A stretch of 64,000 nt of DNA from Alistipes sp. GTDB taxonomy: Bacteria > Bacteroidota > Bacteroidia > Bacteroidales > Rikenellaceae. Below the pieces are notes generated by a model. The model saw only the letters and a program-made list of their open reading frames with translations, did no database searches and was not told the DNA's origin. Both the position numbers and the translations under genes were made by a program. The stretch covers positions 1-64,000 of the forward strand of contig JAFSBY010000019.1 in NCBI GenBank assembly GCA_017437045.1. The letters are read 5' to 3'. Below are positions 3,131 through 61,545 of the stretch, one piece after another. The first letter of the stretch is position 1. Every line of letters starts with the position of its first letter.

Positions 3131-3174
3131 AAGAGGTGACAAGAGGTAGCAAGAGACAGGTTTTGGAAACCTGT
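3131..3174 (+). promoter_or_regulatory. Period-10 repeat and hairpin ahead of hpf
   Basis: Three imperfect 10-base units beginning AAGAG (3131-3160) run into a small hairpin, ACAGGTTT TGG AAACCTGT (3156-3174), 33 bases before the hpf start. It could be a leader structure or a weak terminator/processing site after xerC. The function is unknown. Confidence 0.35.
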
Positions 3175-3207
3175 AAAAAGAATATTAACCATTTAATAAT
3201 CAAGGCT

Positions 3208-40460: not shown

Positions 40461-43400
40461 TTAAGCCCACTTCACGAGGGCAAAATCCATACGATAGGGC
40501 AACTGCTTGTTCTGCGGGAAGACACGCAGTGCATAGTCGAACGTACCGGCCTCGTCGGGCGTGTACTCCAGCGTGTAGGTTACCAGCGAACCCTCGACCT
40601 TCGTGCACTCCAGAGCGATCGTGCGCTTCACGTCGATCTGCTCCTTGCCCACGATCTGCTGTGCTACGACCATCTCAACACCGATATCCTCGGGCTGCAG
40701 GTTCTGTACGTCGAGCGTCACGGCAAAGCGATACTTCGCACCGACGAAGATAGCCTCCTGACCCAACTGTACACGCTCCGTATTGACTACGCGTACCGAA
40801 TCCCAGGCAGCCGAAACCTTGCGCTTCCAGGCGGCAATCTCACGAGCCAACTTGTAACCTCCGGCCGTGATCTCGCGCTTGCGGGCAGCCAGCTTGTTGT
40901 AGAAGCGATCCTCGTAGTCGATCAGCATGCGGTTAGTCGTGAAGTTCGAGGCGATGTCTGCCACGCAACTCTTGACCGATGCCACCCACTCGTGCGGAAT
41001 ACCATCCTCCGAACGGTTGTAGTATTTCGGGGCAATCTGCTCCTCGATCGTGTTGTAGATCATCTCGGCGTCGAGCTCGTCCTGGAAGTGTTGGTCGGTG
41101 AAGGTGCGCTCCATCGGAAGCATCCAACCGGCACCCTCCTTGTAACCCTCGACCCACCAGCCGTCGAGTACCGAGAACTGCATAACACCATTCATTACGC
41201 ACTTTTCGCCCGACGTACCCGAAGCCTCCAACGGACGGGTCGGCGTGTTGAGCCATACATCGACACCCTGCACCATGCGGCGAGCCAGCTCCATATCGTA
41301 GTTCTGCAGGAAGAGGATCTTGCCCACGAACTGCGGCATGGCCGAAACCTCGACGATGCGCTTGATCAGATCCTGACCCGGCTTATCGTGCGGGTGAGCC
41401 TTACCGGCAAAGATGAACTGCACGGGACGCTCCTTGTTGTTCACGATGGCAGCCAGACGCTCCAGGTTCGAGAACAGGAGGTAAGCACGCTTGTAGGTGG
41501 CAAAGCGACGGGCGAAACCGATCGTCAGCACCTCCGGCTTGATACCGTCGATGATCTGCAACATCTGACGCGGCGAGTCGAGGCGTACCTGACGCGGGTC
41601 GCTGTAACGACGACGGATGTGGTGGATCAGACGCTCCTTGAGCTTCATGCGCTCCGACCACAGCTCCTCGTCGGGAATCTGCTTCACCTTCTGCCATGCC
41701 GGAATGTCGTATACGTGACCCTCGAAGGCGTCACCGAAGTAGCGTGCGTAGAGACGACGCAGCGACGTGGCAATCCAGGTCGGGAAGTGTACACCATTCG
41801 TCACATAACCGATGTGCAACTCGTTCTTGAAGTAGCCCGGCCACATGTTGCCCAGGATCTCCTTCGATACCTCACCGTGCAACCACGACACACCATTGAC
41901 CTCCTGCGAGAGGTTGCAGGCCAATACCGACATCGAGAACTTCTCGTTCGGGTCGTTCGGGTTGGTCTTACCGAGGTTGATGAACTGCTCCCAAGTGATG
42001 CTCAGCACGTCGGGATAGTGCGACATGTACTGACGAATCATCGACTCGGGGAAGGCGTCGTGACCGGCCGGAACCGGCGTGTGGGTCGTGAAGAGCGACG
42101 ACGAGCGGATCACCTCCAGAGCCTCCGAGAAGGAGAGCTTCTTGTGGTTCACCAGGTCGCGGATGCGCTCCAGACCGATGAAGGCAGCGTGACCCTCGTT
42201 GCAGTGGTATACATCGTGCTTGATGCCCATCTGACGCAGGGCGCGGATACCACCGATACCGAGCAGGATCTCCTGCTTGAGGCGGTTCTCCCAGTCACCA
42301 CCATAGAGGTAGTGTGTGATCTGACGATCCTCCTCGAGGTTGGCCTCGTAATCCGTGTCGAGCAGGAAGAGGTCGGTGCGACCTACCTGGCATTTCCAAA
42401 CACGAGCCGAGAGCGTACGACCCGGCAGCGCGATCGTAACCGTTACCCAGCCGCCGGCGGCATCACGCACGGGCGAGATGGGCAGCTTGTAGAAGTTCTG
42501 AGCCTCGTAGGTTGCCTCCTGGGCTCCCTGGGCCGACAGACGCTGCGTGAAGTAACCGTAGCGGTACAACAGACCCACGGCAGCCATCGGAACGTTCTTG
42601 TCCGAGGCCTCCTTCAGGTAGTCACCGGCCAAAATACCCAGACCACCCGAGTAGATCTTCAGCGACGAGTGCAGACCATACTCCATCGAGAAGTAGGAGA
42701 TCGTCGTAGCACCCTTGGCGGGCTTCTCCTCCATGTAGGTGCGGAACTGACCATACACGGCATCGAGCTGTGCCAAGAAGGTGGCATCCTGCTCGAGCTG
42801 CTTGAGGCGCTCCATCGGCAGTTTGTCGAGGAAGGCAATCGGGTTCTGCTCACAGGCGAGCCACAGCTGCTGGTCGATACCCTCGAACAGGTCACGGGCG
42901 CTGGCGTTCCAGCACCACCAGAGGTTGCGCGACAGCTCCTCGAGTGCACGCAGACGTGTCGGCAGGGTCTTGTCGATCATCATGCGGTTCCAGCTGGGCT
43001 TTTCTACGAAGAGCTGCTGGCGCACGAAGTTGATCTGCTCGTTGCGGGCACCACCCTCGCCCAGCAGGGCGCGGTTCGTGCGGATCACCGAGCTCTCCAG
43101 TGCCTCGGCGTAAGCCTGCTCGTAGGCGGCGTAGAGGCTCTTCCAAAGAGCCGTCTTCGAGATCTCGAGGGCCGATTTGCGTACCTCGCTTACCTGCTCC
43201 TCGCTGAGCTGGCTGAAGCGCAGCAGAGCATCAGCAATCTTCATCGTCACCTCCATATCGTTGTAATCGTCGCGGCGGATCACCTCCACACCGGCGTGGT
43301 CGATCTTCTTATCCACCCAGATACCGAAGCCGGCCAACGTCGTTGTGATAGCCGGAACCGAGAAGGCTACCGACTCCAGCGGCGTGTAACCCCACGGCTC

Positions 43401-44711
43401 GTAGTACGACGGGAATACCGTTACGTCCATACCCACCAGCAACTCATAGTAGTGCTTGTTGAAGATGCCATCCTGGGCATTCAGGTAGGTCGGCACGAAG
43501 ATCACCTTGACCTTCGACTGCTCGGTCGTCAGAATCGAGCCATTCAAGGCATTGACAATCTGATCGGTCGATTGGTACTCCAGACGGTGGGTCGAATATT
43601 TGTATTGGCTCTGGTCGATCGGGTTGTTTGCATCGGCCAGGTGTGCTTGCAGATCCTGACGAGGACCGGCATTAGCAGCCGGCACGGTGATGTAAGCCAG
43701 CACCTCGCGGTCGAGCTTGTCCGATTGTGCCAGACGCTTCAGCGACTCGATGAATAGGTCCAAACCCTTGTTGCGGAACTCGTAGCGACCGCTCGTGCCG
43801 ATGATCAGCGGCTCGTTGGTGAATTTCTGACCCAGGCAAGCCTCTGCCACCTCAATCATCGCCTTGCGGGCCTCCTTGCGCTTCTTGTCGAACTCCTTAC
43901 CGCTCCACACGAAGTCGTTCTCGAAGCCGTTGGGCGTTACGCCATCGACCTCGCGGCCGAGCAGGTACTTACACTCGTTGGCCGTGATGTCGCTCACGGT
44001 CAGGAACGAGTCGGCGTAGGTAGCAGCCATCTTCTCGATCGAGTGCTTGGCCATAACATTGAACTGGCGAGCCAGGTCATCGGCGTTGAACTTCGTCAAA
44101 TCGTTGTACAGGGGCAGGTGATTACCTGCGATGCAGCGACCCATCACCGTGGCGTGGGTCGAGAAGAGCGTTGCCACATAGGGGGCATTCGAGCGCAGGT
44201 AGAGCGCACCGGCGGCCGTCATCCATTCGTGGAAGTGGGCAGCGACCTTGTCTTGTGCCGAGCAGAAGGTATCGACATACGAAGCGATCACCTGACCGGC
44301 AGCCCAACCGAAGAGCACCGGCTCAACATAGTCCCACTGACCCGAGATCGAGTCTACGTGGTACTCATCCCACAACGTCTTGAGAATCTCGTCCTTCTTG
44401 GCGAAGAGCGAGGTGAAGTCGATCAGAATAGCCACCGGGTTACCCTGAATCTTCCAACGGCCTACGCGGATACGGATACCCTCCTCATAGACACTCTGAC
44501 GCCAAGCGCGCAGCAGCGTGGCATCCTCCTCGAACTCGGGATTTGCACCCTCATATTGCAGATCGGGACCGATCAGCACATAGTGGTCATTGAATTTGCG
44601 CAGCGCGGTTTTGGCTTTGGTTGCAATGACGGTATGAATACCGCCAACTTTGTTGCATACCTCCCAACTTACCTCAAACAGATGGTCGGGAGTCATTTTC
44701 GTGTTGCTCAT
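40461..44711 (-). CDS. Glycogen synthase (GT3) - alpha-glucan phosphorylase (GT35) fusion
   Basis: A 1416-aa protein joining two opposite activities. Residues about 1-560 are a eukaryote-like GT3 glycogen synthase (LFEVSWEVCNKVGGIHTVI; HFHEWMTAAGALYLRS; YEPWGYTPLESVAFSVPAI), which normally uses UDP-glucose. From about 585 a DUF3417-like region (LRALEELSRNLWWCWNASA) leads into a Thermus/Actinobacteria-type phosphorylase (ISYFSMEYGLHSSLKIYSGG; GILAGDYLKEASD). The pyridoxal-phosphate lysine is K1170 in EASGTSGEKCVMNG. A beta-rich tail covers the last roughly 100 residues. It heads the cluster that also encodes the debranching, GT4 and GH57 enzymes, and has its own promoter. The fusion is contiguous with no internal stop or frameshift. 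Confidence 0.93.
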   Translation of the reverse strand: MSNTKMTPDHLFEVSWEVCNKVGGIHTVIATKAKTALRKFNDHYVLIGPDLQYEGANPEFEEDATLLRAWRQSVYEEGIRIRVGRWKIQGNPVAILIDFTSLFAKKDEILKTLWDEYHVDSISGQWDYVEPVLFGWAAGQVIASYVDTFCSAQDKVAAHFHEWMTAAGALYLRSNAPYVATLFSTHATVMGRCIAGNHLPLYNDLTKFNADDLARQFNVMAKHSIEKMAATYADSFLTVSDITANECKYLLGREVDGVTPNGFENDFVWSGKEFDKKRKEARKAMIEVAEACLGQKFTNEPLIIGTSGRYEFRNKGLDLFIESLKRLAQSDKLDREVLAYITVPAANAGPRQDLQAHLADANNPIDQSQYKYSTHRLEYQSTDQIVNALNGSILTTEQSKVKVIFVPTYLNAQDGIFNKHYYELLVGMDVTVFPSYYEPWGYTPLESVAFSVPAITTTLAGFGIWVDKKIDHAGVEVIRRDDYNDMEVTMKIADALLRFSQLSEEQVSEVRKSALEISKTALWKSLYAAYEQAYAEALESSVIRTNRALLGEGGARNEQINFVRQQLFVEKPSWNRMMIDKTLPTRLRALEELSRNLWWCWNASARDLFEGIDQQLWLACEQNPIAFLDKLPMERLKQLEQDATFLAQLDAVYGQFRTYMEEKPAKGATTISYFSMEYGLHSSLKIYSGGLGILAGDYLKEASDKNVPMAAVGLLYRYGYFTQRLSAQGAQEATYEAQNFYKLPISPVRDAAGGWVTVTIALPGRTLSARVWKCQVGRTDLFLLDTDYEANLEEDRQITHYLYGGDWENRLKQEILLGIGGIRALRQMGIKHDVYHCNEGHAAFIGLERIRDLVNHKKLSFSEALEVIRSSSLFTTHTPVPAGHDAFPESMIRQYMSHYPDVLSITWEQFINLGKTNPNDPNEKFSMSVLACNLSQEVNGVSWLHGEVSKEILGNMWPGYFKNELHIGYVTNGVHFPTWIATSLRRLYARYFGDAFEGHVYDIPAWQKVKQIPDEELWSERMKLKERLIHHIRRRYSDPRQVRLDSPRQMLQIIDGIKPEVLTIGFARRFATYKRAYLLFSNLERLAAIVNNKERPVQFIFAGKAHPHDKPGQDLIKRIVEVSAMPQFVGKILFLQNYDMELARRMVQGVDVWLNTPTRPLEASGTSGEKCVMNGVMQFSVLDGWWVEGYKEGAGWMLPMERTFTDQHFQDELDAEMIYNTIEEQIAPKYYNRSEDGIPHEWVASVKSCVADIASNFTTNRMLIDYEDRFYNKLAARKREITAGGYKLAREIAAWKRKVSAAWDSVRVVNTERVQLGQEAIFVGAKYRFAVTLDVQNLQPEDIGVEMVVAQQIVGKEQIDVKRTIALECTKVEGSLVTYTLEYTPDEAGTFDYALRVFPQNKQLPYRMDFALVKWA

Positions 44712-44843: not shown

Positions 44844-45956
44844 TTACTCCTCAAACAAAGAGAAGATTATTGCATCCGAACGGAGAAACTCGCGTGCAGG
44901 TATCCACAGACGCCCTTCGTGGAGCTGCAGGCGACCCTGTTCGAGGAGCGGACGAGCCTCGCGCAGGATGCGTTCGCAGAGTTGTGGCCCGAATCGCTCC
45001 TGCATGGCTCGCAGGTCGAGCCCCTCGGCCGTGCGCAGGCGAGTCATTAGCAGCTCGTCGATCTGATTCTCGCGGGTCAGCTCCTCCCGTTCGGGGACTT
45101 GACCCTCAAGGTAGCGATCCACCGAGGAGGCGTTCCATTGGCGCGAAACCCCGTCGAAGGAGTGGGCTGCAGGGCCGATTCCGAGGTAGGGCGTGCTGTC
45201 CCAATAGCTGCTGTTGTGGCGTGCGCGGTAGCCCGGCAGAGCGTAGTTCGAGATTTCATAGTGCTCGTATCCGGCAGCCGTAAGTCGTTCGTGGAGAAGC
45301 ATATACTCTGCCTCGCAGGTCGCCTCGTCGCACTCCGTCAGCTCCCCTCGAGCGGCCATCACTCCAAAGCGCGTGCGTGGCTCGATGGTCAAAAGGTATG
45401 CCGAAATGTGTTGCACGCCGAGTGCGAGGGCCTTGTCGATCGAACGCTCGAAGCTCTCGCCCCCAAATCCGGGCACGCCAAAGATCAGGTCGATGGTCAG
45501 GTTCTTGAAGCCGACCTGTTGGGCACGGCGGATAGCCTGCTCGGCCTGGAGAGCCGTGTGGCGGCGATTCATCAGCTTCAGGCACCCGTCGTCGAAGGAT
45601 TGGATGCCGATCGAGAGACGGTCGATGCCGATCGAGAGCAACGCCTCGAGGTAGTCCTCATGCAGGTCGTCAGGGTTGGCCTCTAAGGTGGTCTCTACGA
45701 CCTGCGAGCAATCGAAAAGTTGGGCGGAGACGTCTATTAACTGCTTGATTTGCTGCGGTGTGCAGAGCGATGGCGTGCCCCCGCCGAAGTAACGCGTGTG
45801 GATCGGCTCCCCACCAAGGTATGCGCTGCGCCGATGCAACTCCTTGCACATCGCCTCGATGATGCGGGGGAGTCGGTCGATCTGTGCCGTGCGGTAGAAG
45901 TCGCAGTAGCTGCAGATGCGTTTGCAGAAGGGGATATGGTAGTATATTCCGGCCAT
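44844..45956 (-). CDS. hemW: Radical SAM heme chaperone HemW
   Basis: A 370-aa radical SAM protein. The cluster motif CKRICSYCD places the three cysteines at C11, C15 and C18. It continues with YFGGGTPSLC, LEANPDDLHEDYLEALLSIG, RLSIGIQSFDDGCLKLMNRR and LIFGVPGFG. The C-terminal HemN_C-like domain includes HYEISNYALPGYRARHNSSYW. HemW delivers heme to target proteins; older annotation calls this an oxygen-independent coproporphyrinogen oxidase, but the CxxxCxxC with no fourth cysteine favours HemW. The -7 box ends seven bases from the ATG, so the message is almost leaderless. Confidence 0.93.
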   Translation of the reverse strand: MAGIYYHIPFCKRICSYCDFYRTAQIDRLPRIIEAMCKELHRRSAYLGGEPIHTRYFGGGTPSLCTPQQIKQLIDVSAQLFDCSQVVETTLEANPDDLHEDYLEALLSIGIDRLSIGIQSFDDGCLKLMNRRHTALQAEQAIRRAQQVGFKNLTIDLIFGVPGFGGESFERSIDKALALGVQHISAYLLTIEPRTRFGVMAARGELTECDEATCEAEYMLLHERLTAAGYEHYEISNYALPGYRARHNSSYWDSTPYLGIGPAAHSFDGVSRQWNASSVDRYLEGQVPEREELTRENQIDELLMTRLRTAEGLDLRAMQERFGPQLCERILREARPLLEQGRLQLHEGRLWIPAREFLRSDAIIFSLFEE

Positions 45957-45971: not shown

Positions 45972-46087
45972 ACAAGAAAAATCGAAAAAATTGCTTCAAA
46001 ATGCAAAATTTGGCGACGGGTCTGCTGGGGGTGTTCCCGATAAATGTTACCAAATTGTTAAATTTATTTATTTTATTCCTAAAATAT

Positions 46088-46118
46088 TTGCATAATATAA
46101 AAAGTCGCCTTATCTTTG
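46088..46118 (+). promoter_or_regulatory. Promoter of the small RNA candidate
   Basis: TTG (46088-46090), 20-base spacer and TATCTTTG (46111-46118) match both elements. No protein-coding frame follows before the T tract at 46253. Confidence 0.8.
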
Positions 46119-46122
46119 CACT

Positions 46123-46261
46123 TGAAGTTTTAAGGTTCATTTAGGTTAGTAGTTTTAGGTTGGTTGAGGAGATCGGCAGGTTGTAGTGCAAAGCACTACT
46201 AAGATTCTTCGGCGGTGCTCGTCGAGTGAATCGAATACCTCCGACCGACTCATTTTTTTTT
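46123..46261 (+). ncRNA. Structured small RNA of unknown class
   Basis: The transcript should start near 46123 and stop at nine T residues (46253-46261), about 139 nt. It folds into a three-helix junction. P1 pairs 46158-46169 with 46238-46250 (GTTGGTTGAGG against CCTCCGACCGAC, with G-U pairs and one bulge). P2 is GTAGTGC AAA GCACTAC (46183-46199). P3 pairs GATTC (46203-46207) with GAATC (46228-46232), then CGGCG with CGTCG, loop GTGCT. P1 and the T run form the terminator. The first 35 nt are unpaired and contain a repeated TTTAGGTT. No SRP, tmRNA or RNase P signature is present; a 6S-like RNA is not excluded. It lies between hemW and an unknown membrane protein, in an otherwise gene-free gap of 376 bases. 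Confidence 0.6.
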
Positions 46262-46277
46262 GCCCTGACTACCACAA

Positions 46278-46312
46278 AAAGACGCGATCCTCGCTGTGAG
46301 GGTCGCGTCTTT
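46278..46312. terminator. Terminator of the membrane protein gene
   Basis: A 15-bp stem AAAGACGCGATCCTC / GAGGGTCGCGTCTTT with one G-T pair and loop GCTGT, 21 bases after the stop of the leftward gene. It works in either direction. Confidence 0.85.
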
Positions 46313-46332: not shown

Positions 46333-46998
46333 CTACTCGATTTGGGTCGGCTCGTCGGTCGCCGCCACCGGCTGCTTGGGCTGGGCTATCAGCACAATCA
46401 GGGTCGTGGCAGCAAAGGCCATGAAATCGTTGATATTGGGGATGAGATTTTGTATTACAGCAACTTCTCCATAGTTGCAGTCAAACCACCCCACCAACAA
46501 TGTGAAGTCAAAGAAGATGATAAGGTAGGCGAAGAGTCGTTTGGCTGTGAGCACCACCTTTAAGGTCCAGTGGGCACAGATGCTCCAAACGAAGAGTAAC
46601 CAACTAAATAAGTTACTGATGGAAATACAGGTGCTGGCGATTTGCACAATCTCGAAGAAGTTTCTTTCTGGATCGAGCTCGAAAATGAAATAGATATCCC
46701 ATAAGAACCAGTTGATTGTGTAGCCTACTATATAGATTATCAGTCCGATGCATGCCGGGATATTCAGATGAATCTTCTTCATGAAGAGCGGCAGAAGCAG
46801 CAAGATAATCGTAGCGATTCCGAGGATTTCGTTGAGTATATTGATTGAACTCCACCCTCCCGACGAGTGGGTAATGTGAATACTCATCAACTCATTAACC
46901 TCGGGGATGAGGTTAAGAAATAATAATACGGGGAGTCCCGTCAAGGTAATCCACCACCAGGCGGGGAGGATCGAACGTCGTTTCAGTGTGTTTGACAT
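46333..46998 (-). CDS. Multi-pass membrane protein of unknown function
   Basis: A 221-aa protein with about five to six hydrophobic segments: residues 12-30, 52-72, 80-100, 118-140, 150-172 and 190-208. Aromatic residues cluster at WWWITLTG and INWFLWDIYFIFEL. There is no enzyme motif and no known family that I recognise. The base composition is more AT-rich and the codons more mixed than in neighbours, suggesting transfer. It has its own promoter and terminator, so it is a single-gene unit. It lies head-on next to the small RNA candidate; the two terminate towards each other. Confidence 0.7.
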   Translation of the reverse strand: MSNTLKRRSILPAWWWITLTGLPVLLFLNLIPEVNELMSIHITHSSGGWSSINILNEILGIATIILLLLPLFMKKIHLNIPACIGLIIYIVGYTINWFLWDIYFIFELDPERNFFEIVQIASTCISISNLFSWLLFVWSICAHWTLKVVLTAKRLFAYLIIFFDFTLLVGWFDCNYGEVAVIQNLIPNINDFMAFAATTLIVLIAQPKQPVAATDEPTQIE

Positions 46999-47083: not shown

Positions 47084-47764
47084 ATGCGCGAAGAATTCAA
47101 ACCCGGGACTCTGATCTATCCCTTGCCGGCTGTCTTGGTCACCTGTGGCAGCTCGCCCGAGGAGTGGAATATGCTGACCATCGCCTGGACGGGCACGGTC
47201 TGCACCGACCCGCCGATGTGCTATATCTCGGTGCGCAAGGAGCGACACTCGCATGCGCTGATCAGCCGCACGGGCGAGTTTGTCATCAACCTGACGACCG
47301 AACGGCTTGCTCGTGCCACCGATTGGTGTGGCGTGCGCAGTGGCCGCGATTACGACAAATTCCGCGAGATGGGGCTCACACCCCTGGCTGCCAAGCATGT
47401 CTCGGCACCCCTGATTGCCGAGTCGCCCGTAGCTATCGAGTGCCGCGTGAAGCAGTGCATCGAGCTGGGCTCGCACGATATGTTTCTGGCCGAGGTGGTG
47501 GGTGTGGAGGTCGATGCCGACTATATCGACTCCGAGACGGGCAAATTCCACCTCGACAAGACGGGCCTTTTGGCCTATTCGCACGGGGCCTACTACCGTT
47601 TAGGCGAACAATTAGGCACCTTTGGCTGGTCGGTCCGCAAACGCCCCGCGGCGAAACCCGCAGCACAACCTGCGGTGAAATCGGCCGCCAAAACCTCTGC
47701 CAAGCCCACGGCCAAACGCGCCCCCAAATCCGCCCCCAAACCTGTGGCCAAACGTCGCAAATAG
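47084..47764 (+). CDS. Flavin reductase-like FMN-binding protein with a basic tail
   Basis: A 226-aa protein. Residues 1-178 form the split-barrel flavin reductase-like domain (GTLIYPLPAVLVTCGSSPEE, NMLTIAWTGTVCTDPPMCYI, FVINLTTERL, ATDWCGVRSGRDYDKF, VAIECRVKQCIELGSHDMFL). The last 45 residues are a low-complexity Lys/Ala/Pro tail (KSAAKTSAKPTAKRAPK). Such histone-H1-like tails usually bind nucleic acid or other polyanions and are not part of the family. Function of the core: FMN binding and probable flavin or electron transfer. The convergent XRE gene is separated by a hairpin. Confidence 0.88.
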   Translation: MREEFKPGTLIYPLPAVLVTCGSSPEEWNMLTIAWTGTVCTDPPMCYISVRKERHSHALISRTGEFVINLTTERLARATDWCGVRSGRDYDKFREMGLTPLAAKHVSAPLIAESPVAIECRVKQCIELGSHDMFLAEVVGVEVDADYIDSETGKFHLDKTGLLAYSHGAYYRLGEQLGTFGWSVRKRPAAKPAAQPAVKSAAKTSAKPTAKRAPKSAPKPVAKRRK

Positions 47765-58938: not shown

Positions 58939-61545
58939 ATGAAACGGCTGCTCATCCTTACCATTGCGTTGCTGGCCACCGTTGCCGTGTCGGCACAACG
59001 GCCGGCGAATGCCATCTGCGCGCTCGATCCCAAACATCCGATCGAATTGCTCGACGGAGCCTTCCGTTATGAGCATCAAGTCATCCAGCTCGACAAACAT
59101 ACGATTCTGATCGACGGCTCACTCAGCGATGCCGAGGCAGCCGCCCTCCCACACGTTTACAACACCTTCCAAGCTGCCGCGGCACATTTCGTAGCCGGCA
59201 GCGAGGAGCAACCGATGCGGGTCTATATTGCTCCGTGGGTCTATTGGATCGATGATCCGGACGATCCCTACATCCGTGGCTCGAAGGGCGAATATCCCTT
59301 TGGCATGGTGGTTAAATGCCCCTATTTGCACCTGATCGGCCTGCACACCAACCCCCGAGCCGTCGTGTTGGCCTCACAACGCGGACAGACGCAGGGTGCT
59401 GTGGGTAACTTCACGATGTTCGATTTCTGGGGCGACGGTATGCGCTTCGAGAATCTGACGATGGGCAATTTCTGCAACATCGACCTCGAATATCCCCTGA
59501 AACCCGAATTGGGTCGTCCGAAACGCAACTCGGCCATCACGCAGGCGCACGTGGCCTATTGTCACGGTGATCGGATCGTGGCGCGCAATGTCCACTTCTT
59601 GAGCCGACTGAATATGAGCCCGTTGGCCGGAGCAAAACGCGTGCTGTTTCAAAAGTGCCACATGGAATCGACCGACGATGCCCTCTGCTCGACGGGTGTT
59701 TATCTGAATTGTACGCTCGATTTTTACGGCCAAAAGCCCTTCTACAACACCGATCGCGGAGGTGTAATCTTCCTCGGATGTCGCTTTCGTGTCTGCCACG
59801 AAGAGCCGCGCCAATACTTCTGCAAGGCGCAGAATCCGCTCTCGATCATCAACTGCCGGTTTGAAGGCCCCACGCTGGACTATGTCGGGTGGACCCATAC
59901 GCCGGCCGAGTGGCTGCGCTGCTATCAGTACAGGGTCAAGATGAATGGGCAGCCCTACATCATCGGAGCCGATCAGCCGACGAATACGATTACGCTCGAT
60001 GATAAATTGTTGTTGTCGGCCTACTATGTGAAGTATCGTCTGCGCGATGATACCTATCTGGATTGTTATAATATCTATAACCTGCTTTGCGGGGATGATG
60101 GGTGGGATCCGCTTGGGCAACGTGCAGAGATCGAATACGCGGGTCGTCTGAGCAATCGCGACTATACGCAGATTGCCACTTCGCTCCAGCTCGACCGCCG
60201 ACAGGCCGAGCTTCGCACGGGCGAGGAGCCGCTGACGGTGACAGCCACCCTCTTCCGTCACTGTAACTATCCGCTCAACAACCGCCCGATCCGCTGGCGC
60301 GTGGAGTCGGGCTATGAGCGTTACGTGCAACTTTCGACCACCGAGGGACAGACCTGCACCGTTACGCCGACCAACGACGAAGATTATCCCGAACACTTCA
60401 CCCTCATTGCCTCGACCGACGAGGGACACGAGGCGGCCCTCGAACTGACGATCCATCCCAACCTGATAGCCCCGCCGACCTTCACCAAACAGCCCGAAAT
60501 TCTCCTTTCGCGGCCGGGAAGAGCCGACGTGGTGTATGCGCTCGATTTGGGCCAGCGCGAGGATCTCTCGATCGTTACGTGGTACCGTGCCAAGCGTAAG
60601 GATGGCAAGGATGCTGTGCCGGTAGCCGTATCTCCGGCCTACACATTCTCGCCCAATTACAAAGCGACGGGCGACATCGTGACGCGATTGGATGCTCCGA
60701 CTCTTGCTTATGGGCTGACACAGGATGATATTGGCTACTACCTTGTGGCCGGTGTTGCACCGAAACATATCCGCTCCGAGGCAGGCGAAGAGGTGCGCGT
60801 GGTAACCTCACGTCCCATCCGCAAGGAGGATGTAAAACAGATCCGCTCCATGGATCGCACGTTCGCCACCTTCCCGCCGATGAATCAACCGAAGATCGCT
60901 GCCGGCTGGTGGACGGTCGATAGTTTCAAGCCGGCCGACACGAAGGCCTACGGCTGGCAACCCAACCCCGAGAAACCCGCTTGGCGTTTCGGTGAGGGCA
61001 TCAACGGTGCACGAGGTACGGGTCTGTATCAGATCCAGAAGGGAGCACGCCTGCTCTATACCCCGACAGCCGAGCGCAAAGGCGATATGGAGGTAAGGCT
61101 CTATTGCGACCCCGCCAAGACGGCCGGCCAGGGCTTTGGCAGTGCTACGGGGCAATATATGGACCTCTACATCCAATTCGATACGAAGACTTTGACGGGT
61201 TATGCCCTGCGCGTGGAGCGTACGACAAAATATAGCAATGCGGTTGATTTTAGTTTGGTGCGCTACGATCGAGGCGAGGTGACACCCCTCACCAAGCCGA
61301 TCTCTTCGCCCTGCTTCCGCACGGGGTGTACCTTGACGATCAAGATCGACGGCAAGCAGCTCACGGCCCATGTTGAGAGTCAGACACTCTTGCCGCTCGA
61401 AACACGCCATCTGCCGCAGCAGGTCGATCTGAAGACGACCGTAGAGCCGCTTCCCTATGGTGGTACGGGGCTGCTCTACACGGGGTCGTGTGGTGAGAGT
61501 ATCGTGCTGTTGCACTGCTTGCAGGTCGAGTGGAATGGCCAATAA
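58939..61545 (+). CDS. Secreted right-handed beta-helix protein, carbohydrate-active-looking
   Basis: An 868-aa exported protein (signal peptide 1-20, ending VSAQ). Residues about 70-420 have the spacing of a parallel beta-helix (MVVKCPYLHLIGLHT, FRNLTMG-like RFENLTMGNFCNIDLEY, RIVARNVHFLSRLN, VLFQKCHMESTDDALCSTGV, VIFLGCRFRVCHEE), as in pectin-active lyases and methylesterases. An Ig-like region (about 440-560) and a C-terminal jelly-roll domain (about 680-868) follow, the latter resembling LamG/DUF1080 modules. Substrate and catalytic residues could not be assigned. The start at 58939 is set by the signal peptide. Lies 14 bases after ybaK. Confidence 0.75.
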   Translation: MKRLLILTIALLATVAVSAQRPANAICALDPKHPIELLDGAFRYEHQVIQLDKHTILIDGSLSDAEAAALPHVYNTFQAAAAHFVAGSEEQPMRVYIAPWVYWIDDPDDPYIRGSKGEYPFGMVVKCPYLHLIGLHTNPRAVVLASQRGQTQGAVGNFTMFDFWGDGMRFENLTMGNFCNIDLEYPLKPELGRPKRNSAITQAHVAYCHGDRIVARNVHFLSRLNMSPLAGAKRVLFQKCHMESTDDALCSTGVYLNCTLDFYGQKPFYNTDRGGVIFLGCRFRVCHEEPRQYFCKAQNPLSIINCRFEGPTLDYVGWTHTPAEWLRCYQYRVKMNGQPYIIGADQPTNTITLDDKLLLSAYYVKYRLRDDTYLDCYNIYNLLCGDDGWDPLGQRAEIEYAGRLSNRDYTQIATSLQLDRRQAELRTGEEPLTVTATLFRHCNYPLNNRPIRWRVESGYERYVQLSTTEGQTCTVTPTNDEDYPEHFTLIASTDEGHEAALELTIHPNLIAPPTFTKQPEILLSRPGRADVVYALDLGQREDLSIVTWYRAKRKDGKDAVPVAVSPAYTFSPNYKATGDIVTRLDAPTLAYGLTQDDIGYYLVAGVAPKHIRSEAGEEVRVVTSRPIRKEDVKQIRSMDRTFATFPPMNQPKIAAGWWTVDSFKPADTKAYGWQPNPEKPAWRFGEGINGARGTGLYQIQKGARLLYTPTAERKGDMEVRLYCDPAKTAGQGFGSATGQYMDLYIQFDTKTLTGYALRVERTTKYSNAVDFSLVRYDRGEVTPLTKPISSPCFRTGCTLTIKIDGKQLTAHVESQTLLPLETRHLPQQVDLKTTVEPLPYGGTGLLYTGSCGESIVLLHCLQVEWNGQ

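Follow-up and report, generated by a model that had tools for sequence, protein, structure and literature searches.

A three-way-junction small RNA of Alistipes as a probable new form of the Bacteroides sugar-use regulators

According to PMC11697453, Bacteroides thetaiotaomicron carries 14 FopS small RNAs (sRNAs), in each of which a terminator hairpin follows a single-stranded 5′ stretch; they bind the RRM protein RbpB via their arms and, in Bacteroides, repress SusC-like mRNAs at their start codons. GibS, from B. thetaiotaomicron as well, is a longer sRNA that, as described in PMC7366714, shares its 5′ pairing region with short FopS paralogues and pairs at start codons. A 2021 survey (PMC8040213) further lists HMP2_1881, a 108-nt candidate structured RNA that occurs mostly in Bacteroidetes, often lies near radical SAM domains and was expressed in all 13 of the places where it was found in fecal samples; the description there gives it no function.

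The RNA analyzed here lies in a 64,000-nt stretch of an Alistipes sp. contig, referred to as the window, and is probably a new form of these Bacteroides regulators of sugar use. GibS is alike, by description, in its greater length, in a 5′ pairing region held in common with short paralogues and, if our proposal below holds, in pairing at start codons. Our RNA may also be HMP2_1881 itself; a radical SAM neighborhood is common to both, HemW being one such protein. A literature search found no description of an Alistipes sRNA like this one.

Promoter, ends and fold of the RNA gene

We placed the RNA gene at positions 46124–46261 of the window, on the plus strand. As the sequence-only reading had claimed, a Bacteroidetes promoter can be read directly upstream (46087–46118), with TTTG at 46087–46090, a 20-nt spacer and TATCTTTG at 46111–46118. 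All 41 copies that we collected carry the −7 box, TA[TC]CTTTG, 4–5 nt upstream of the arm, and 39 also have the 20-nt spacer. The gene itself consists of a conserved 5′ arm, GAAGUUUUAAGGUUCAUUUAGGUUAGUAGUUUUAGGUUGG (46124–46163), which we propose as the pairing region; a three-way junction body delimited by pair counts (46166–46251); and the run of nine T residues noted earlier (46253–46261), at which the RNA ends. The feature had previously been drawn as far as 46312; it stops at about 46261, and the hairpin at 46276–46312 is the likely terminator of a convergent gene on the opposite strand (46333–46998), which encodes a 221-aa protein with no Pfam match. A simple terminator scan found no terminator at the 3′ end of the RNA because the stem is interrupted. 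Across the collected copies (long and short forms, defined below), helix P1 is directly followed by at least five T residues in 23 of 32 long forms, and all 9 short forms have such a run after their hairpin; the remaining 9/32 long forms have no T run after P1, and the body is therefore not merely a terminator.

On the upstream side, the nearest neighbor is a hemW-like gene on the opposite strand (44844–45956) with Radical_SAM and HemN_C domains. The next plausible gene on the plus strand, a flavin-reductase-like gene starting at 47084, lies 823 nt downstream, in keeping with the distance of some 800 bases given before, with shorter mechanical open reading frames (ORFs) in between. A scan of the window for tRNA and tmRNA found none. 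Likeness to the gibS locus through a glycogen gene near the RNA was considered and rejected, the gene being found at few loci; in the window, a single 1416-aa frame at 40461–44711 (minus strand) joins a glycogen-synthase part to a DUF3417/phosphorylase part.

The single-sequence fold of the RNA stretch was more stable than that of 195 of 200 shuffles (z = −2.40), and comparison among copies resolved three helices. P1 pairs GAG (46166–46168) with CUC (46249–46251), UCGG (46173–46176) with CCGA (46241–46244) and AGG (46178–46180) with CCU (46238–46240), according to pair counts and, for the outer GAG/CUC part, judgment by eye only. P2 is the perfect 7-bp hairpin with an AAA loop that had been described, GUAGUGC-AAA-GCACUAC, at 46183–46199 by pair counts. 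P3 (46203–46232), defined by pair counts and the fold, has the two parts claimed for it, GAUUC (46203–46207) with GAAUC (46228–46232) and 46208–46214 with 46220–46226, closed by the loop GUGCU. The long P1 proposed earlier fared less well: a helix exists there, in the comparative form UCGG.AGG/CCU.CCGA plus GAG(G)/C(C)UC, but the version with GGUUGG in the 5′ strand is not supported, since those bases belong to the arm, which is invariant in the 20 aligned copies.

To assess covariation, we took 20 of the 32 long forms and aligned them by sequence only; several of the 12 omitted have a much longer P2. Across these 20 Alistipes sequences, 94.2% of cells in the named structure are paired, and the covariation score was 0.475 compared to 0.221 in shuffled alignments, none of 500 of which scored as high; sliding the partners by one to three columns gave at most 0.109. 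Both sides changed in 11 of 21 pairs, which is the weakest of these measures, being reached by 12/500 shuffles. By helix, P2 had 100% of cells paired with five of six counted pairs changed on both sides, and the two parts of P3 had 91.3% and 93.8% of cells paired with four of eight counted pairs so changed. In a larger set of 54 distinct full-length copies, 96.4% of cells pair and 159 cells changed on both sides, compared to 44.5 in shuffles (maximum 65), counts that lean towards the model because the copies were aligned to it. Unguided RNAalifold recovered P2 along with some of P3 and P1. It paired stretches of the arm as well, which covariation cannot test because the arm columns are invariant. 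Unpaired junction bases are conserved as well, with CUAA between P2 and P3 and GAA after P3 in the 54 copies. The three-way junction is real and supported by covariation: compensatory changes among relatives, named beforehand as a check, are present in all three helices. Together with the promoter and the terminator, they give good support to the sequence-only reading of a standalone structured RNA.

Long and short forms in the Rikenellaceae

A DNA search matched 34 of 61 genomes, all of the window's own genus. The 41 distinct copies collected comprise 32 long forms, in which the arm is followed by the three-way body, and 9 short forms, in which the same 5′ arm is followed by a terminator hairpin. 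An RNA model built from 20 long forms, R1, extended this range to 200 of 250 family genomes in 13 of 22 genera (145 genomes of the window's genus, 55 of others), with one to three matches per genome; these include short forms, because R1 contains the arm. Fifty of the 250 family genomes were missed, some of them more than 95% complete; at least 17 misses belong to Alistipes itself, and the 30 beyond those listed probably belong to other genera, since the list was ordered by kinship. Among the R1 matches listed, each one above 70.5 bits came from the window's genus, and the copies seen in nine genomes of other genera (loci L076–L081, L083–L086) are short forms; the three-way body has therefore been seen only in Alistipes. 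All 35 named contigs with an exact match to the four-T variant of the arm were titled Alistipes or Rikenellaceae, a set from which the window's own record was possibly omitted.

The genome that holds the window has two copies, one long and one short. In 14 of 55 sources scanned, a short and a long form share a strand with their starts 220–617 nt apart, while six short-form loci that are not in tandem (L031, L032, L033, L037, L038, L039) have the same FAD-dependent dehydrogenase gene nearby, a gene present in whole or in part in 10 of 89 loci searched. The simplest account would have the long form arise through tandem duplication and a later change in the 3′ body. As for a mobile origin, we rejected it: searches returned seven weak chance matches in phages (E of 0.7 or more) and one in plasmids (E = 3), and viral contigs contained no exact match. 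In four genomes (G029, G030, G243, G260), an armless second copy of the body lies near the long form, at L089 2047–2138, L088 1622–1710 (minus strand), L043 about 3141–3204 (minus) and L052 122–213 (minus). These armless copies lie about 300–400 nt from the full long form, and the sequence that follows both body copies is repeated too, which looks like the recent duplication of a short unit.

Throughout this spread the arm hardly changes. Among the 20 aligned long forms it differs in nothing but the length of one U run; 17 short forms from several genera show one variable A/G position, and elsewhere the departures are one substitution in L041 and a C inside the U run of two short copies. Being nearly fixed across two unrelated 3′ bodies, the arm shows which part of the RNA is under the strongest constraint. 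It contains three AGGUU units and is modeled as more open than the body, with mean unpaired values of 0.52 compared to 0.30 in the 32 long forms and 0.56 compared to 0.22 in the 9 short forms, with part of it paired by the fold models. Read as its reverse complement, the arm resembles a Bacteroidota translation start (CAACCUAAAACUACUAACCUAAAUGAACC; CAACCUAAAACUACUAACCUAA-AUG-AACC), and on our reading the same holds for the FopS consensus.

Relation to FopS and to its partner RbpB

No Rfam family matched anywhere in the window at gathering scores, and permissive searches of the RNA stretch gave only chance matches. This is consistent with the earlier remark that no known housekeeping RNA signature was found, and identification as a known Rfam family, named beforehand as a refuting outcome, did not occur. 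The label of unknown class that followed from this stands insofar as the RNA falls below the cut-off for FopS (RF04319, BTncRNA_FopS, an sRNA family of Bacteroides and other Bacteroidales), but not in other respects, since its layout, arm, paralogues and distribution are like those of FopS. Both have a conserved single-stranded 5′ arm behind a promoter of the sigma-ABfr type (TTTG/TAnnTTTG), an arm whose reverse complement resembles a translation start, and paralogous copies within a genome, some in tandem; the Alistipes short form also shares the arrangement of an arm followed by a single Rho-independent terminator hairpin (9/9 short forms). Unlike FopS, the long form in the window has a three-way body and no single terminator hairpin, there are one to three copies per genome rather than up to 15, RbpB is mostly missing from the hosts, and the arm sequence differs. 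The FopS model gave short form L077 14.2 bits (E = 3.8, cut-off 56), did not match the long form and found nothing in the genome of the window at E ≤ 0.01, and direct alignment of the two arms was not significant, being equalled by 20% of shuffles. Of 237 genomes of the order, 42 had FopS matches above the cut-off, as many as 15 in a single genome, whereas the three family genomes among those 237 had none.

Loci of intermediate character suggest a connection. In 18 loci scanned against Rfam, which had been picked by likeness to the Alistipes arm, FopS was the best match at two places, though below the cut-off: L113/L124, where two copies scored 33.0 bits (E = 0.4) and 32.1 bits (E = 0.61), and L111 (30.1 bits, E = 1.5); these E-values cover 4,227 families and would thus be roughly a thousandth as large for FopS alone. 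The intermediates have an arm, UUUCAUAGGUUAGGUUUUAGGUUAGU, that aligns both with FopS (0.1% of shuffles as good) and with the Alistipes arm (0.2%), the latter being the likeness for which it was chosen. A model of six intermediates recovered the Alistipes copies, a circular result because the intermediates were selected for that similarity, and found a sole FopS locus, L129, weakly (E = 0.073); a model of the short forms found none of 12 FopS loci. On our reading, the RNA and FopS probably share an ancestor, and we do not file the RNA as a FopS member. Separately, we observed that L113 (genome G333) holds three FopS-like units in a row at about 854–1530 on the minus strand, two of which are preceded by a TATCTTTG box, with about 50 nt of further 5′ sequence between it and the arm.

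When the short-form model was run on 292 genomes at E up to 0.1, 37 of those matched lay outside the family, where about 29 would be expected by chance, which by itself is no evidence of the arm there. The pattern AGGTTAG-N(0-5)-TTTTAGGTTAG occurred in 5 of 295 genomes, 4 of them outside the family, and at all four of these places a hairpin lies within about 45 nt, with a clear T run at three as judged by eye. We also noticed an arm-like motif, UUCAUAGGUUAGGUUUUAGGUUAGU, whole or partial, directly 5′ of a terminator-like hairpin in other Bacteroidales families: L122 1496–1560 (plus strand), L123 1450–1530 (minus) and L120 1400–1530 (minus). With no obvious promoter at these three places, it is perhaps a 3′ UTR element.

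The RRM_1 domain of RbpB was not found in the genome of the window, which is 92.8% complete. Of 120 family genomes, 14 had the domain, including two of the window's genus, and it was missing from the other 106; the same search was positive in Bacteroides ihuae. Six genera with R1 matches (g27, g34, g41, g42, g43, g44) gave no RRM_1 match in the 120-genome sample. In most Alistipes, therefore, the RNA would have to work without RbpB. That the three-way body compensates for this is a guess; short forms, too, occur in genomes without RRM_1.

Proposed function, alternatives and candidate targets

On balance, sequence comparison leads us to favor a reading in which the RNA is the long form of a trans-acting sRNA family in Alistipes and its relatives that works like FopS, most likely as a blocker of start codons built on a new scaffold. 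The sequence shows a promoter and a terminator belonging to the RNA itself, a strongly conserved arm and a covarying junction. On the proposed reading, the arm would pair across the start codons of its target mRNAs, including those of glycan-use genes, and so keep ribosomes off. More tentatively, the three-way junction may have taken the place of the short form's plain terminator hairpin as a stabilizing or protein-docking scaffold, a swap that would fall in a lineage mostly missing the FopS partner RbpB.

Predicted pairing at translation starts is consistent with this proposal. Counting 14-nt stretches with at least 12 matches, and excluding loci chosen by arm or FopS similarity, we found the complement of the arm at 18 of 448 translation starts, whereas shuffled arms averaged 8.4; at the best of four settings 3 of 150 shuffles were as high, and the other three settings gave 5, 6 and 6 of 150. 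Further upstream, it occurred 3 times among 440 stretches. A common leader motif may account for part of the signal at starts, and orthologous starts were merged only when identical. In the genome of the window plus 29 loci of the genus, 51 TonB-plug (SusC-like) starts paired better than 220 others (P = 0.006, Mann–Whitney test), with a difference as large in 5 of 100 shuffled arms; in the genome of the window alone, the difference between 22 plug-domain starts and 76 others was not significant (P = 0.07 to 0.30). An initial test with singly shuffled arms showed no overall preference (mean z = +0.44, 99 starts).

A protein-binding RNA, whose AGGUU/UUAG arm units would bind, and thereby store or titrate, an RNA-binding protein, with mRNA pairing being secondary, strikes us as rather unlikely. 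Three AGGUU units and 40 nt of nearly full conservation, more than a pairing region usually needs, speak for such a role, as does the binding of RbpB to FopS arms reported in PMC11697453; the enrichment of the arm complement at translation starts argues against it, as does RRM_1, which is absent from the genome of the window and found in only 14/120 family genomes.

We regard as improbable a sensor sRNA in which the junction binds a small molecule or protein and thereby controls the arm, making the RNA a trans-acting regulator with a built-in switch. The covarying junction with its conserved unpaired CUAA and GAA would suit this, as would the 9/32 long forms without a T run after P1, in which the body is not only a terminator. 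However, the junction bases fit a purely architectural role too, the short forms do without the three-way body, and the comparison yielded no alternative fold that would sequester the arm and vary in concert. Its corollary, that Alistipes fused a start-codon-blocking arm of the FopS type to a sensing junction in an RNA that needs no RbpB, we hold to be every bit as improbable.

A cis-acting leader or riboswitch of the downstream gene was already disfavored and is very improbable: although 4 of 41 copies lie 30–200 nt upstream of a same-strand ORF of at least 100 aa, such an ORF was found for only 20 of 41 copies in the DNA examined, a terminator directly follows the body in 23/32 long and 9/9 short forms, the next gene in the window is 823 nt away, and the neighbors change from copy to copy, with HemW beside those of only five genomes (89 loci searched). 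6S RNA is a long hairpin with a bubble. A 6S role, which had been suggested for this RNA, or that of another Rikenellaceae housekeeping RNA, is the least credible, since one to three copies per genome and a wide spread in the family are set against a three-way junction, no Rfam match to 6S or any other family, and the 50 of 250 family genomes left unmatched, some of them more than 95% complete.

If the FopS-like start-codon blocker is the correct reading, post-transcriptional control of glycan use of the FopS type extends to Alistipes and can run without RbpB. Moreover, if arms of this type are taken to be the reverse complement of a generic Bacteroidota translation start, their target sets become predictable and testable.

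Among individual sites, the best prediction was the start codon of a GH43 glycosidase lipoprotein in a relative, G008 (locus L037, −31.7 kcal/mol), 2.3 kb from a short-form gene; SusC-like starts with a predicted site lie at L148, L152 and L154. Within the window, the best predicted arm-pairing site (−26.8 kcal/mol) is the start region of a gene at 58939–61542 (plus strand) for an 868-aa predicted secreted protein with no Pfam match. A single strong target in the genome of the window was considered and rejected, as a 21-nt wobble pattern occurred at eight places, two of them sRNA genes, compared to seven for the reversed control. The complement of 15 nt of the arm with at most one mismatch occurred at 19 places compared to none for the reversed arm; the 18 of these that were listed include 4 sRNA genes and 11 places in loci chosen for arm similarity, leaving L037, L162 and L188 as the only unbiased ones, each with an ATG within about 40 nt. 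Finally, we observed the arm complement before the starts of two recurring genes, each in three loci, at L021 2561 (minus strand), L202 6783 and L207 6423 for the first and at L187 724 (minus), L192 1767 and L204 547 (minus) for the second. Their proteins begin MKVQTIMADLERKHPG and MGEIYYVMVAILALLAVSGL, respectively, the former of which we take to be glutamate-dehydrogenase-like, and from their sequences the two genes are possible conserved targets.
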